Source: Oceanisphaera profunda (GTDB lineage Bacteria; Pseudomonadota; Gammaproteobacteria; Enterobacterales; Aeromonadaceae). From it: 64,000 nucleotides of DNA. A program made the position numbers and the translations under genes. The stretch spans positions 62,001 through 126,000 of the forward strand of contig NZ_CP021377.1 of NCBI RefSeq assembly GCF_002157895.1. The letters are read 5' to 3'. Numbering within the stretch: position 1 is the first letter of the stretch; every line of letters begins with the position of its first letter. The notes beneath the pieces are model-generated. The model saw only the letters and a program-made list of their open reading frames with translations, ran no database searches and was not told the origin of the DNA. Of the stretch, positions 245 to 30,689 are shown in pieces.

Positions 245-292
245 ATGAACTTCCTGCACAATGCCAAGCATCACCATCATATTCCCGACTAG
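245..292 (+). CDS. hisL: His operon leader peptide HisL
   Basis: A 15-residue reading frame, MNFLHNAKHHHHIPD, ends at TAG and contains five histidine codons, four of them consecutive (269-280). This is the layout of his leader peptides in enterics: when charged histidyl-tRNA is scarce, ribosomes stall on the His run and change the folding of the downstream leader RNA. It is followed at once by overlapping hairpins and a T-tailed terminator, and then by hisG. No strong Shine-Dalgarno sequence is visible in front of the ATG. Confidence 0.9.
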   Translation: MNFLHNAKHHHHIPD

Positions 293-297
293 GCTTT

Positions 298-387
298 CAG
301 AATATTATTCTGGAAGGCCATACGCTTGGCGGCTTCCAGCAGGATCAATATATTAACCCTCGGAAGTTTTGCTCCGGGGGTTTTTTT
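298..387 (+). promoter_or_regulatory. Histidine attenuator region
   Basis: Competing structures are visible. CAGAATATTATTCTG (298-312) is a near-perfect hairpin. CTGGAAG (310-316) pairs with CTTCCAG (333-339). The terminator stem is CCCTCGGA (357-364) with TCCGGGGG (373-380). CTTCC (333-337) can also pair with GGAAG (362-366), which would melt the terminator. That is the mutually exclusive antiterminator/terminator arrangement expected for his attenuation. The RNA folding is inferred by eye from complementarity. Confidence 0.85.
357..387 (+). terminator. his attenuator terminator
   Basis: An 8-bp stem (357-364 with 373-380, one G-T wobble) encloses an 8-base loop and is followed directly by seven Ts (381-387). 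It is an intrinsic terminator placed between hisL and hisG, and serves as the regulated stop of the his leader transcript. Confidence 0.85.
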
Positions 388-5476: not shown

Positions 5477-6217
<741 letters not shown>

Positions 6218-6229
6218 TTAATGCTGGCA
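6218..6229 (+). repeat. 12-bp duplicate of the hisF start region
   Basis: TTAATGCTGGCA occurs directly after the hisA stop codon and again at 7842-7853, where it holds the real hisF start (ATG at 7845). Here the frame reads only MLAD and stop. The two copies bracket the segment carrying the DUF2092 gene pair. They could be a target-site duplication, or the relic of hisF's original position one base after hisA. Confidence 0.7.
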
Positions 6230-6282
6230 GACTGACGAGCATATGCGTCACGCTTAAGCAGCATCAATAACCGTCACACAAT

Positions 6283-6330
6283 AAAAGCAGAGAAATCAGC
6301 ACATTAAAGCGCTGACCATCTGCTTTTTTT
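6283..6330 (+). terminator. Terminator after hisA
   Basis: AAAGCAGA (6283-6290) pairs with TCTGCTTT at the other end, with an inner TCAGC/GCTGA stem, followed by a run of Ts (to about 6330) on the plus strand. It would stop the hisGDCBHA transcript before the inserted minus-strand genes, implying that hisF-hisIE need their own promoter or depend on read-through. Confidence 0.7.
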
Positions 6331-6385
6331 ATTCATTACAGCTTTGCTATTTATTACTGCTTTATTATTTATTACAAAGGTTAGG

Positions 6386-6598
6386 CTAGCAATTATATAC
6401 GCCCACGGCACAGCGTCTGACCGTTCTGCGCGCCACGCCGGCCACGCTAACCGGCGTTAGCGGCCTGCCCACCCGAGCTTCAGCCGAGGAAATAACACTC
6501 GACATACCCGGTATCGACAACTGAGCACCCATTTCAATGCCTAACACGGCAACCAGTGCTATCGCGGCCATCAGGCCAATACGTTTTAGCTTTTTCAT
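6386..6598 (-). CDS. Small secreted cationic peptide, partner of the DUF2092 gene
   Basis: A 70-residue product. Residues 1-41 look like a Sec signal peptide (KKLKR, hydrophobic core, SSAEA cleavage site). Cleavage would leave about 29 residues containing GRPLTPVSVAGVARRTVRRC and ending in a second cysteine. This mature part is strongly basic with two cysteines. The start overlaps the stop of the upstream DUF2092 gene by four bases (ATGA), so the two are a translational unit. I do not know a function. The pairing suggests that the periplasmic DUF2092 protein and the peptide act together. Confidence 0.75.
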   Translation of the reverse strand: MKKLKRIGLMAAIALVAVLGIEMGAQLSIPGMSSVISSAEARVGRPLTPVSVAGVARRTVRRCAVGVYNC

Positions 6599-7407
6599 TC
6601 GGCTGCTCCTTTACGGTGAGTGAAATTTTCTGGCAAATCATTGGCGTCAGACAGCTTATCTAACTCCACCAAGGTGGCGTCAGTGCTGTTTTTAAATGAG
6701 TAATCACGCGCAACTACCGCGTCACCGGTTTTCCAATTGCGGGTTTGCACGCTGTATTGCGGGCCATTCTCTACCTGCTTTGAGGTAATGATATAACGGC
6801 AAGGATAAGGTGTGTCACCTTGAGCAATCCAAATTTGCCAGTCGACCTCATCGGTGCGAAACGCCAGTGAATTACATTCCACCCCACCAATAACACCGCT
6901 ACCCAGATCTTTTATATCCGTCACGTTTTCTAACAGCACTTCTGATGCGTTAGTCAGCAGCAAGTCTGCGGCGGGCATAGGCACTTGATACACATTTTTG
7001 AGTTGGTCGATAAGCGTGTCTGTATCACCGTCTATTTCAACTTGTGCGTATTTATTAGCATTTTTACCCAGTACGCTCAGTGTTTTACCATCAAAATTCA
7101 TTTCTACGTTCGCAAAGCCGCCCATTCGTGTGGCGTAAAGGTTATTAGGGCGTGTGAGTGTCACCTCGCCAGAACTCGCAATGCCAAGGATCTGATTATC
7201 ATGGGTGACCACGTCCAACGTAGAGTCATAGTCAAAGGAGTAAGCTTGTTGAGCATCGAGATAGTCGGCCATGGCCTTAAGTAACTGTTTGGCATCGTTT
7301 TCATCGGCAACCGTTAGCGATGAACCCACGACAAAAAACAGCGCTAAGCTGCCAGTCACGATTCTGCTACCGGTTGAGTGAGGAGGTTTGGTCGATAGTT
7401 TCAGCAT
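6595..7407 (-). CDS. DUF2092-family periplasmic protein
   Basis: A product of about 270 residues with an N-terminal signal sequence (hydrophobic stretch SLALFFVVGSSLTVA), followed by a domain I recognise as the DUF2092 predicted periplasmic family: KAMADYLDAQQAYSFDYDS near the mature N-terminus, LTRPNNLYATRMGG, and FRTDEVDWQIWIAQG. Such proteins resemble LolA-like beta-sheet folds, but no reaction is established. I chose the ATG at 7407 because it gives a normal signal peptide. An in-frame ATG at 7455 would add 16 basic residues. It lies opposite to, and inside, the split his operon and is coupled to the 70-residue peptide gene. Confidence 0.8.
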   Translation of the reverse strand: MLKLSTKPPHSTGSRIVTGSLALFFVVGSSLTVADENDAKQLLKAMADYLDAQQAYSFDYDSTLDVVTHDNQILGIASSGEVTLTRPNNLYATRMGGFANVEMNFDGKTLSVLGKNANKYAQVEIDGDTDTLIDQLKNVYQVPMPAADLLLTNASEVLLENVTDIKDLGSGVIGGVECNSLAFRTDEVDWQIWIAQGDTPYPCRYIITSKQVENGPQYSVQTRNWKTGDAVVARDYSFKNSTDATLVELDKLSDANDLPENFTHRKGAAE

Positions 7408-7676
7408 AGAGTGTCGCCTTTGTCGGAGCCGTAAGCAGGGATGCTTGCGATTCAAGTGTAGTCATGACTGTAATTATGGGTGACAGATAACTTAGGTTAC
7501 GGTTAAAAATTAGTCATTATTAATCTTGCAAGGCTCAGTGTTATGACTCGTCAAACAAGATCTCACACCACCCTCAACTAGGGCTTATTTGCGGGCCCTA
7601 TTAGCGTTATACTAGTGCCCAACAATGCATAGCCACTGCATAACCATTAATTGCCTACCAGCCGTTATCTATATGC
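7408..7676. other. Intergenic region between the DUF2092 gene and hisF, left part
   Basis: No gene is seen. The stretch should hold the minus-strand promoter of the DUF2092 pair and the plus-strand promoter of hisF-hisIE, but no -35/-10 pair is clear enough to call. A minus-strand frame of 61 codons (7669-7854) only translates the repeats described next. Confidence 0.5.
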
Positions 7677-7724
7677 AGTTACCTGCATAGTTACCCGCGT
7701 AGTTACCTATAAAGTAACCACCTT
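7677..7724 (+). repeat. Iteron-like direct repeats, 12-bp period, upstream of hisF
   Basis: AGTTACC is found at 7677, 7689 and 7701, with a fourth copy carrying one mismatch (AGTAACC) at 7713: four units at an exact 12-bp spacing, about 120 bases before the hisF start. Regular spacing at slightly more than one helical turn suggests a binding array for a regulator, or a recent slippage expansion. Confidence 0.6.
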
Positions 7725-7844
7725 CAGGTAGCGCATATAAGCTAGATAACCGTATGCCAAGCACTGGTATTGATACTGCATCTTCATCATGAAATGGAGT
7801 GGTAGAGCTATGACTTATAAAGAAAAAATATGGAGCACCATTTA

Positions 7845-8618
7845 ATGCTGGCAAGACGCATAATCCCCTGTTTAGACGTAAAAGATGGCTTAGTGGTCAA
7901 AGGCGTCAAGTTTCGTAACCATGAAATTATCGGTGATATAGTGCCACTGGCCCAGCGCTATGCGGCCGAGGGTGCCGATGAGTTGGTGTTTTATGACATT
8001 ACCGCCAGCAGCCAAGACCGCGTGGTCGATAAAAGCTGGGTTAGCCGTGTAGCAGAAGTGATCGATATTCCGTTTTGCGTGGCCGGTGGCATTAAGTCGG
8101 TGGCGGATGCGGCGCAAATTTTAGAATTTGGTGCCGATAAAATTTCTATCAACTCCCCTGCGCTAACTAATCCGGCGCTGATCACCGAACTGGCCGAGAC
8201 TTTTGGTGTGCAGTGCATAGTGGTGGGTATCGACTCTTACTATGACGAAGCCACGGGTGAGTATCAGGTGCATCAGTTTACCGGTGACGAAAGCCGTACT
8301 CAGGTCACCAAATGGAGCACGCTCGACTGGGTTGAAGAAGTACAGCGCCGCGGCGCCGGTGAAATTGTGCTGAACGTAATGAACCAAGATGGCGTGCGCC
8401 AAGGTTATGATTTAGAGCAACTGCAAAAAGTGCGCGCTATCTGTAAGGTGCCACTGATTGCCTCTGGCGGTGCCGGTGAAATGCTGCACTTTAAAGACGC
8501 CTTCTTACAAGCAGACGTAGACGGTGCACTGGCCGCTTCCGTGTTTCACAAAGGCATCATCAACATCGCTGAGCTGAAGCAATATTTAAGACAACAAGGA
8601 ATTCAAACTCGTGACTGA
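7845..8618 (+). CDS. hisF: Imidazole glycerol phosphate synthase cyclase subunit HisF
   Basis: Cyclase subunit that uses ammonia from HisH to convert PRFAR into imidazole-glycerol phosphate and AICAR. It has 257 residues, beginning [15 protein letters not shown] with the catalytic aspartate in PCLDV and the second one in [10 protein letters not shown]. The ATG at 7845 matches the family N-terminus and has GGAG (7832-7835) nine bases upstream. An ATG at 7830 lies in front of that site. The gene is separated from hisA by 1.6 kb. Confidence 0.97.
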
Positions 8619-9240
8619 TGCTAAGCAAGTTTCAACATTCGATGAAACCCAACTCGATTGGGCCAAAGTTGACGGCTTAATGCCGGTAATAGTGCAAGAC
8701 CGCCACAGCGCCCGCGTGCTGATGCTGGGCTACATGAACACCGAGGCGCTGGCGCTGACGCTGGCAAGCAAGCAAGTAACCTTTTTTAGTCGCACTAAAA
8801 ATCGTTTGTGGACCAAAGGCGAAAGCTCTGGCCATTATCTGCAGTTAGTGGATATCAGCACCGACTGCGATAACGATACCTTGCTGGCAATCGTGGAGCC
8901 GATTGGCCCGACTTGTCATTTAGGGCATGTATCTTGCTTTAACGAACAAACCGCACCCGGCCTCACCTTCTTGGCCGAGTTAGAGCAAGTGATTGCTAGC
9001 CGTAAGGGTGCCGATCCTAAGTCCAGCTACACCGCCAGCCTCTATGCCAGCGGCACCAAGCGTATCGCGCAAAAAGTCGGTGAAGAAGGCGTAGAAACGG
9101 CACTGGCCGCCACCGTGCACGATAAAGAAGAGTTAGTCAGCGAGTCGGCAGATCTGCTCTACCACCTCACCGTTCTGCTGCAACAAGAAGAGCTGCAACT
9201 GGCGGATGTAATTGCCAAGCTGCAAGAGCGCCACCGCTAA
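8611..9240 (+). CDS. hisI: Bifunctional phosphoribosyl-AMP cyclohydrolase / phosphoribosyl-ATP pyrophosphatase HisIE
   Basis: This 209-residue fusion performs steps 2 and 3 of the pathway. The N-terminal PRA-CH part has the zinc-site cysteines in [19 protein letters not shown] and GHVSCF. The C-terminal PRA-PH part has the acidic [13 protein letters not shown] and ESADLLYHL motifs. The start is GTG and overlaps the end of hisF by eight bases. A strong terminator follows, ending the his cluster. Confidence 0.96.
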
Positions 9241-9340: not shown

Positions 9341-9440
9341 TTGTAGCCGGCCGTCTCTTTGGTAAAGAGGACTTCGGCGGTCCTGCTTTATTAAATCATC
9401 CTGCTTCGCAGGACCGGCTAATAAATTGCCGGCTACAAGT
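9341..9440. repeat. REP-type modular palindrome
   Basis: Begins TTGTAGCCGGCCGTCTC, contains GGTAAAGAGGACTTCGGCGG and the TCCTGCTTCGCAGGA hairpin, and ends with the inverse complement of the head (GCCGGCTACAAG). It is the first of many copies in the window and lies just after the his terminator. Confidence 0.85.
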
Positions 9441-29800: not shown

Positions 29801-30689
29801 CGCCAGCGTAGATATATCCATCTATTTCTGTTTTAGACTTATTATCATCATCGCCGTCTATTTCTACATCACCAAGGCCATAAAAACGGAAAATGCCATT
29901 ATTAACTGTTTTTACCTTCACTTCATCAAAATCTGAATCATTATCATTGTTTTTGTCTTTGTCTTTGTTTTTGTCTTTGTCTTTGTCTTTGTCTTTGTCT
30001 TTGTCATCGTCTTTGTCATCGTCTAAATTCGCTACGTATATACGCAGATCACCTTCAACCAATATCGAAGACTCTTCAATATCAAAATCTTTTTTGACAT
30101 AAAACCGAACATTATTCTTTACCGTGATTTTTGAATCTTGAACGTCAAAATCCTTTTTAATATAAAAATCTATATTCCCGATAAGAGTAAGGTCGACCTC
30201 TTGCAGTTTGAAACCTTCCTCAACAAATATACGAACCTGACCCGTCGCTTTAAGCGAAATATTACGTTTTTGTTGATCTACTTTACTTAATTTATAATCA
30301 CCAGGGTCAAGGGTATATACACCTTCGTTCGCACCCGGTAAATCTCTCGCATTGGAAGCTGTCATATCAAAATTAATATCACTAACTTTCAACGAGTTAA
30401 CACTATTAGCCTGACCGGTAATGGTGCATGTTTTTCCGTCACAAGACTGGTTATCATCGTCTAATTCTATAGTGCAAAAATCGAGTGCGCCATTTGCGCC
30501 ATTGATCTGTGCATTATCTTCAAGTTCAAGCTGTGCATCATCGTCATCACTCGGCTCTGGACTACAGTCACTTTTCACTCCATGCCCCTGCGCCACGTTA
30601 GGGAATAGTACATTATCAGCGGGCACGGCGCTTAATGCTGGCAGGGTCAGCAGCATACTAAGTGATAACCATATTAATATTTTTAACAT
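26871..30689 (-). CDS. mshQ: MSHA biogenesis protein MshQ, large secreted putative adhesin
   Basis: A 1272-residue exported protein with a signal peptide (residues 1-20). Residues about 100-220 hold repeated strands of the pattern charged-FYVKKDFD-hydrophobic, likely beta-solenoid. A Lys/Asp-rich linker (about 222-260) is coded by hexamer repeats. Residues about 345-610 resemble an L-type lectin (GGPLGYGKRSGVDDGFAGGWLGIGIDEYGNYV). The C-terminal half belongs to the DUF6701 type found in MshQ proteins. In other bacteria MshQ is the last, poorly studied msh gene. A role as pilus-linked adhesin is inference. Base composition is more AT-rich than its neighbours. Confidence 0.85.
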   Translation of the reverse strand: MLKILIWLSLSMLLTLPALSAVPADNVLFPNVAQGHGVKSDCSPEPSDDDDAQLELEDNAQINGANGALDFCTIELDDDNQSCDGKTCTITGQANSVNSLKVSDINFDMTASNARDLPGANEGVYTLDPGDYKLSKVDQQKRNISLKATGQVRIFVEEGFKLQEVDLTLIGNIDFYIKKDFDVQDSKITVKNNVRFYVKKDFDIEESSILVEGDLRIYVANLDDDKDDDKDKDKDKDKDKNKDKDKNNDNDSDFDEVKVKTVNNGIFRFYGLGDVEIDGDDDNKSKTEIDGYIYAGGTLEMEGYATIYGKVTAGRLEMEDDAAINPNQCFFYTFDDDYTPAEDWATRSNTDSFKPEIVDGRFRLTQSKGNQATAVSYNQTFSSVNNKFVIEFDQYAYDRTSSNGADGIALVLSDATITARPGAYGGPLGYGKRSGVDDGFAGGWLGIGIDEYGNYVREGGSRNIKEVEGKSNNPGLSETEHAVAIRGAGSGEEGYNLLAYKLKMDPPVDSHHNSKRPHRYRITIDFTKPDGKARVTVERHANSTKGFETLIDRFKVEQGNTPEELIFSITGSTGGSNNIHEIDNLGFCANKVKRLDPKIDHFRFDVTASNVQACQPQKVTLKACANSNCSETYNQLVTASLAVPNGLKWRDGSTVSFENSKDLYLTSTTKKIKLDVVGSQPTAVQFGKTLCQVGSSGYSETSCTLDFSNELKAFELDFPDGNFTYAGEPLKAILKPQQNCESLFAGETRSISLSAVYVQPENPVAKPSVELGYNGQITRLVPDGLETLSVTFDESGEAAFILTYPEAGKTQLNVVEGNINGGGQFVTVPKALCVNTNPVSIRENDSTYAPYKAAGEAFGMVVTAHGSNNNPDVCKRPVLQNYIHPVALFSNKEPLGSGSNGELTVSNYTHGVSGDIADDNENIVGRNSVDAGKNTLTQSIDEVGVFELSASPIGAFHGISQSEMPIESIPVTAGRFYPARFVLDQADVVATHDGDKTKSYMGQPVNLSFALSALNADGKVTQNYQGEFAKATGQFRVAISDRNMLPRLNLEKMASWQEGRLEFNQYNVVLSRGSQPDGPFELQFDLAVNDGETSSLSAFFDKAGETHPGCRTEGCNHLRIGRHKMFYGRLLATTTQGSSRDAQSVPLRVEYWDNESAIWQRFKTDSWTSIGIDKIHFPYNDYEKSKLAIDDKIQVGYGVGQGATMGSGSTMVEGETNLNVGAPRVPATIKYEVKLEGKPWLEYKESNQGMIIFGKSPGNSSVIYRREQFSGN
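29953..30024 (-). repeat. Hexamer repeat coding the Lys-Asp linker of MshQ
   Basis: On the plus strand TTGTCT recurs about nine times with a few variants, so the minus strand codes alternating Lys-Asp. A six-base unit preserves frame when it expands or contracts, allowing linker length to vary between strains. Confidence 0.8.

Follow-up and report, generated by a model that had tools for sequence, protein, structure and literature searches.

Alien genes have been described inside operons in general (PMC10138114, as far as its available text goes). The locus reported here resembles those cases in that outside genes with no known role in the pathway lie within a conserved biosynthetic cluster. 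Unlike them, its newcomers lie on the opposite strand beside a terminator-like hairpin, breaking the unit rather than joining it, and one edge retains a 12-bp duplicate of the start of the next gene. The larger newcomer encodes a DUF2092 protein, a family that the accessible part of PMC4520260 assigns to the LolA group. Operons broken by foreign genes are a known kind of event, and this one is well preserved; a literature search of open-licence PMC papers, including the available portions of PMC4520260 and PMC10138114, returned no report of this split arrangement.

We analysed a window of 64,000 nt from Oceanisphaera profunda (NZ_CP021377.1, GCF_002157895.1, positions 62,001-126,000 of the forward strand; genome size 3.51 Mb). 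Its his cluster is of the enterobacterial type, with a His leader, hisA and then hisF-hisIE, and the order is broken after hisA (Table 1; his genes upstream of hisA were named by eye). An insertion has taken place between hisA and hisF: congeners lack the segment, and the hisF start is present twice. We consider it probable, at roughly 0.6, that this was a foreign two-gene segment that entered through the stepwise history proposed below. At the far end of the cluster, an inverted-repeat, REP-like intergenic sequence was seen by eye 3' of hisIE (9346-9440).

Table 1. Features of the broken his cluster, in window coordinates (position 1 is the first base of the 64,000-nt stretch)
Feature	Position	Strand	Basis and remarks
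His_leader (attenuator), upstream of the his genes	268-385	+	Rfam RF00514, 53.5 bits (gathering cut-off 49)
hisA, last gene of the attenuated unit	5480-6217	+	ORF, Pfam PF00977; 91.3% DNA identity to G014
hisA tail, place of the ancestral hisF ribosome site and ATG	6185-6217	+	third-position changes relative to G014 in 7 of 11 codons
GAGG located 8 nt 5' of the copy 1 ATG, perhaps once a ribosome-binding site	6209-6212	+	putative, read from sequence
Copy 1 of TTAATGCTGGCA, presumed earlier start of hisF, now dead (ATG at 6221, followed by CTG GCA GAC TGA)	6218-6229	+	exact match; limits tested by alignment
Inserted segment, 1612 bp between the copies	6230-7841		unmatched among 29 hisF loci from other genomes; found once in own genome
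Terminator-like hairpin between hisA and the convergent insert genes	6283-6327	both	folding
70-aa peptide gene	6386-6598	-	ORF; N-terminus judged signal-like by eye; last 29 residues almost invariant
DUF2092 gene, LolA-like	6595-7407 (ATG start) or 6595-7455 (TTG start)	-	PF09865, E 1.7e-63; 4-nt overlap with the peptide gene
GTTACC-type direct repeats, 12-bp period	7677-7719		DUF2092-hisF intergenic region
11-codon ORF, stop overlapping the hisF start (TAATG)	7810-7845	+	read from sequence
Copy 2 of TTAATGCTGGCA, across the hisF start in use (ATG at 7845)	7842-7853	+	exact match
hisF	7845-8618	+	PF00977; 93.4% DNA identity to G014
hisIE, 3' of hisF in the detached unit	8611-9240	+	PF01502, E 6.9e-32; PF01503, E 4e-23

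The preliminary description had noted an exact 12-mer, TTAATGCTGGCA, directly after the hisA stop and again across the hisF start, with a terminator and two minus-strand genes between the copies. Sequence matching confirmed both copies, and folding and the open reading frames bore out a strong hairpin and the two genes. A search of the whole window gave a third exact copy at 30632. The copy after hisA might be a chance match, the segment having arrived without leaving a footprint; the eight exact copies in the genome (none for a reversed-pattern control) and a mild enrichment of forms with at most two mismatches in the window (20 against 11 expected) lean that way. Against this, the 12-mer abuts the hisA stop, the very position expected of a displaced hisF start, and it carries the opening nine bases of hisF, identical in all 21 congeners. 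Of 12,773 control pieces of 40 bases taken from elsewhere in the window on both strands (step of 10 bases, a single site possibly counting more than once), only 3 shared 12 bp with the hisF start region, so a chance copy abutting the hisA stop is unlikely, and we regard an insertion without a footprint as very improbable.

The repeat has sharp limits. No added hisF homology follows copy 1 (421 of 500 shuffles scored as well in an alignment against hisF of G014, the closest relative by HisF), and no hisA tail precedes the real hisF (385 of 500 shuffles equalled the alignment against the G014 hisA tail). A larger duplication at the edges was rejected, both scores being reached by most shuffles. 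Thus, of what marks a target-site duplication, an exact 12-bp direct repeat with sharp limits was found, and the single pre-insertion copy was not.

We compared the junction with that of relatives. HisF matches were present in 41 of 41 genomes (the organism's own and 40 relatives), and hisA and hisF shared one locus in 21 of the 22 other congeners, the genes of the remaining one (G011) being on different contigs. In all 21 assessable congeners hisA and hisF overlap by 19 nt, with the hisF ATG inside hisA. The earlier statement that hisF normally follows hisA at once therefore held as to adjacency (21/21), but there the genes overlap rather than abut. None of these 21 hisA-hisF loci contained the segment, in agreement with the proposal that it was inserted at the hisF start and that copy 1 is its footprint, and it had no match in 29 hisF loci from other genomes. 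In G014 the sequence is continuous across the site, with 91% DNA identity in hisA and 93% in hisF, and both genes look vertically inherited.

A relative carrying TTAATGCTGGCA once, as the empty site, had also been predicted, but none of the 21 congeners does so. Because their hisF start sits within hisA, the 12-mer is not the empty site there: hisA bases precede ATGCTGGCA. This implies either an earlier re-spacing of hisA and hisF or that the TTA is coincidental. The wider junction table, of 38 rows, showed a 19-nt overlap in 29, an 11-nt overlap in two, a 1-nt overlap in one, a 1-nt gap in one, a 12,448-bp gap in G035 and the 1627-bp gap of the window. These rows include the organism's own genome and two G035 loci; in two no upstream hisA was found and one had no hisF, and L002, L086, L089 and L092 were left out as their genomes were already represented. 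The overlap has thus been reduced or opened in other families (-11, -1 and +1 nt), which gives the un-overlapped intermediate proposed below a precedent. A search for a donor of the hisA tail with an un-overlapped junction gave matches in 30 of 197 genomes of the order (own included), with the same junction in none of the nine other loci read, and none of the genomes examined showed the intermediate, or an empty site bearing the 12-mer once.

Another split of the two genes was seen in G035 (L144), a genome of another family in the same order, where hisA and hisF are likewise separated by minus-strand genes. Unlike the window, its segment is much larger and carries different genes, and no copy of the hisF start was seen in the bases read directly after hisA. 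The separating open reading frames (L144:1457-13904) include photolyase, cyclopropane-synthase-like and sigma-factor-like genes.

The end of hisA suggests what preceded the insertion. Relative to G014, seven third positions have changed in the last 11 hisA codons, against 48 of 235 elsewhere in the gene (Fisher p = 0.003). The same test against G022 gave 7/11 versus 82/235 (p = 0.10, not significant), and an equally dense nine-codon cluster near the hisA start, with six changes, weakens the excess in the tail. The changes preserve the protein save for one Asp to Glu, and they have removed the old hisF GGAGG, which in G014 lies 7 nt 5' of the hisF ATG, together with the old ATG itself. The Asp-to-Glu change creates the GAGG that precedes the copy 1 ATG, although a GAGG at such spacing could be chance. 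The tail still resembles the hisF start at 15 of 18 bases. We count the third-position changes as support for a putative release from dual coding, and we infer that hisF once began immediately beyond hisA, with copy 1 as its translation start.

The larger gene of the insert was assigned to DUF2092 with 214.3 bits (PF09865, cut-off 21.2). Its predicted structure, of low confidence (mean pLDDT 57.8), gave Foldseek matches to LolA, LolB and RseB structures, the best being to LolA (E 2.1e-9; TM-score 0.42 by query and 0.57 by target), and these matches of a low-confidence model agree with the published LolA assignment (PMC4520260, in its available portion). A PDB sequence search with the DUF2092 protein returned no LolA relative and two chance-level matches. 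Unlike LolA, the protein has a 70-aa partner, which had no Pfam match at E 0.001 and one chance-level NCBIfam match far below the cut-off. The segment holds four open reading frames of at least 60 aa, namely DUF2092, the peptide and two without a Pfam match; a PHROGs search with these two gave one weak match to a protein whose function is not known (E 0.045).

The two genes form a recurrent unit. The full two-gene form with the conserved peptide C-terminus was present at 7 of 35 DUF2092 loci (L053, L054, L055, L064, L078, L106 and L107), and in all seven, as here, the peptide gene overlaps the DUF2092 stop by 4 nt. L063 has a shortened peptide, L057, L058, L066 and L069 have a related but different motif or peptide, and the rest have mostly no clear peptide or are cut off. 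Among the eight full-length sequences (L063, L057, L058, L066 and L069 left out), the last 29 residues show 86% mean identity with 22 of 29 invariant, and the first 41 residues 38% identity. The near-invariant end holds two cysteines. One longer relative passes the DUF6515 cut-off, and a second longer partner matches weakly only. The 70-aa peptide is probably exported.

DUF2092 is rare around Oceanisphaera. It was found in 1 of 75 genomes of the family, 1 of 394 drawn from the order and, at any similarity, 16 of 369 from the class, the organism's own genome being included in each count. It also occurs in 141 plasmid records, mainly from rhizobia and at less than 60% identity, and had no match in phage records. 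The nearest relatives, about 50-60% identical, belong to other groups, and DUF2092 and the peptide are found as a two-gene unit on rhizobial plasmids and in other bacteria as well. Since the gene is nearly absent from the family and order and has its relatives in other groups and on plasmids, it is most likely a foreign arrival. The candidates for a DNA-level donor of the segment were only partial plasmid matches, all rhizobial by genus, and were rejected.

The same pair had been expected elsewhere with 12-bp repeats. We did not find this; instead, a decayed pair lies at another locus of the congener G022 (L108:538-692), as two pieces, one of 87 bp with 76% and one of 68 bp with 78% identity, separated by two bases. 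Gene order and direction are as in the window, but the 500 bp that lie between the two pieces there are missing, and the remnant matches gene parts of the insert only, not its edges. It is flanked on one side by the end of an epimerase-like gene (PF16363) and on the other by a metallothionein-like open reading frame (PF02069, below cut-off); the matching metallothionein loci of the organism's own genome and of G014 showed no empty or decayed pair. Protein searches did not list the remnant as DUF2092. When the genus was searched with the peptide at an E limit of 10, 17 of 23 genomes had matches, and G022 was the one taken further. Thus, the pair has been in the genus at two places.

In the history that we favour, the ancestral 19-nt overlap would have opened before the segment came, with hisF starting three bases past the hisA stop. 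The GAGG in the hisA end would have served as its ribosome site while the old start within hisA decayed, and the intermediate junction would have read hisA-TAA-TTAATGCTGGCAAGACGC, without the segment. The segment would then have entered this new hisF start, duplicating 12 bp. The route we prefer is illegitimate joining at a staggered break, another process able to produce a short duplication; otherwise, a transposition-like event whose enzyme is gone may have been responsible. Copy 1 would now be dead, and copy 2 would start hisF. The hairpin after hisA would end the attenuated transcript, and hisF-hisIE would be driven from 7408-7844, perhaps translationally coupled to the 11-codon open reading frame.

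Two other histories would account for the repeat itself. A transposable or integrating element could have brought the pair as passengers with a 12-bp target duplication and since lost its transposase and ends. Some insertion sequence (IS) families do make duplications of about 12 bp, the segment, like an IS insertion, has an exact direct repeat at both edges, and the decayed pair at a different place in G022 and the relatives of the pair on plasmids are also consistent with mobility. Unlike an IS insertion, however, the segment had no transposase match among its four open reading frames of at least 60 aa, no terminal inverted repeats (the best end-to-end score was reached by 74% of 2000 shuffles) and no second copy in its own genome (a single match at E 0.001), and the wreck in G022 matches parts of the genes but not the edges. 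An ordinary transposon is therefore unsupported, the mobile segment of the preliminary description is not supported in that sense, and we hold an element that has lost its machinery to be distinctly unlikely.

Alternatively, the overlapping genes might have been split and their junction duplicated in a single recombination event that passed through no intermediate, the shared TTA being a coincidence or microhomology. The overlap needed copying anyway if both genes were to stay whole, and the 15 matching bases of the hisA tail fit such an event. However, it implies that the start region is present three times (in the hisA tail, in copy 1 and in hisF) rather than twice; copy 1 is a sharp 12-mer without more hisF sequence, and it leaves the GAGG before copy 1 without explanation. 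We consider this route unlikely, and retain opening of the overlap followed by insertion as the preferred account.

We then considered how the two halves of the cluster would be expressed. The hairpin folds at -18.2 kcal/mol on the plus strand (z -5.6), where a T-run is present, and at -26.3 kcal/mol on the minus strand (z -6.3); a stricter terminator pattern scan recognised the minus-strand form only, with no plus-strand site. Three tandem 18-nt copies of a T-rich unit lie directly 3' of it (6325-6378). The genes through hisA probably remain behind the leader and end at the hairpin. From the placement of the His leader and the hairpin, hisF-hisIE are predicted to have lost attenuator control. 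hisF starts 437 bp from the DUF2092 ATG at 7407, and its own promoter is expected in this intergenic region, although a consensus promoter scan gave no plus-strand site before hisF. The region also holds three GTTACC repeats at 12-bp spacing, which may be operator-like, and the 11-codon open reading frame may be a coupling leader or the start of a truncated donor gene.

HisH and HisF are the two subunits of a single enzyme (PMC10138114, in the text available), so the split would put them under different control. A more speculative extension, which we think doubtful, is that DUF2092 and the peptide together form a minimal mobile unit of two genes, inserting at gene starts with duplication of 12 bp and carrying its own bidirectional control region. 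Histidine synthesis would then have been rewired in this host, with HisH left under the attenuator and its obligate partner HisF under the newcomer's intergenic region.

The window thus shows a textbook operon broken in a single species of its genus; 21 congeners keep the old state, and the footprint can still be read. Within the inserted pair, the peptide deserves notice as small, probably exported, nearly invariant over its last 29 residues and without a Pfam match. The case lets one ask how overlapping genes separate without loss of either, and what follows when HisH and HisF come under different control.
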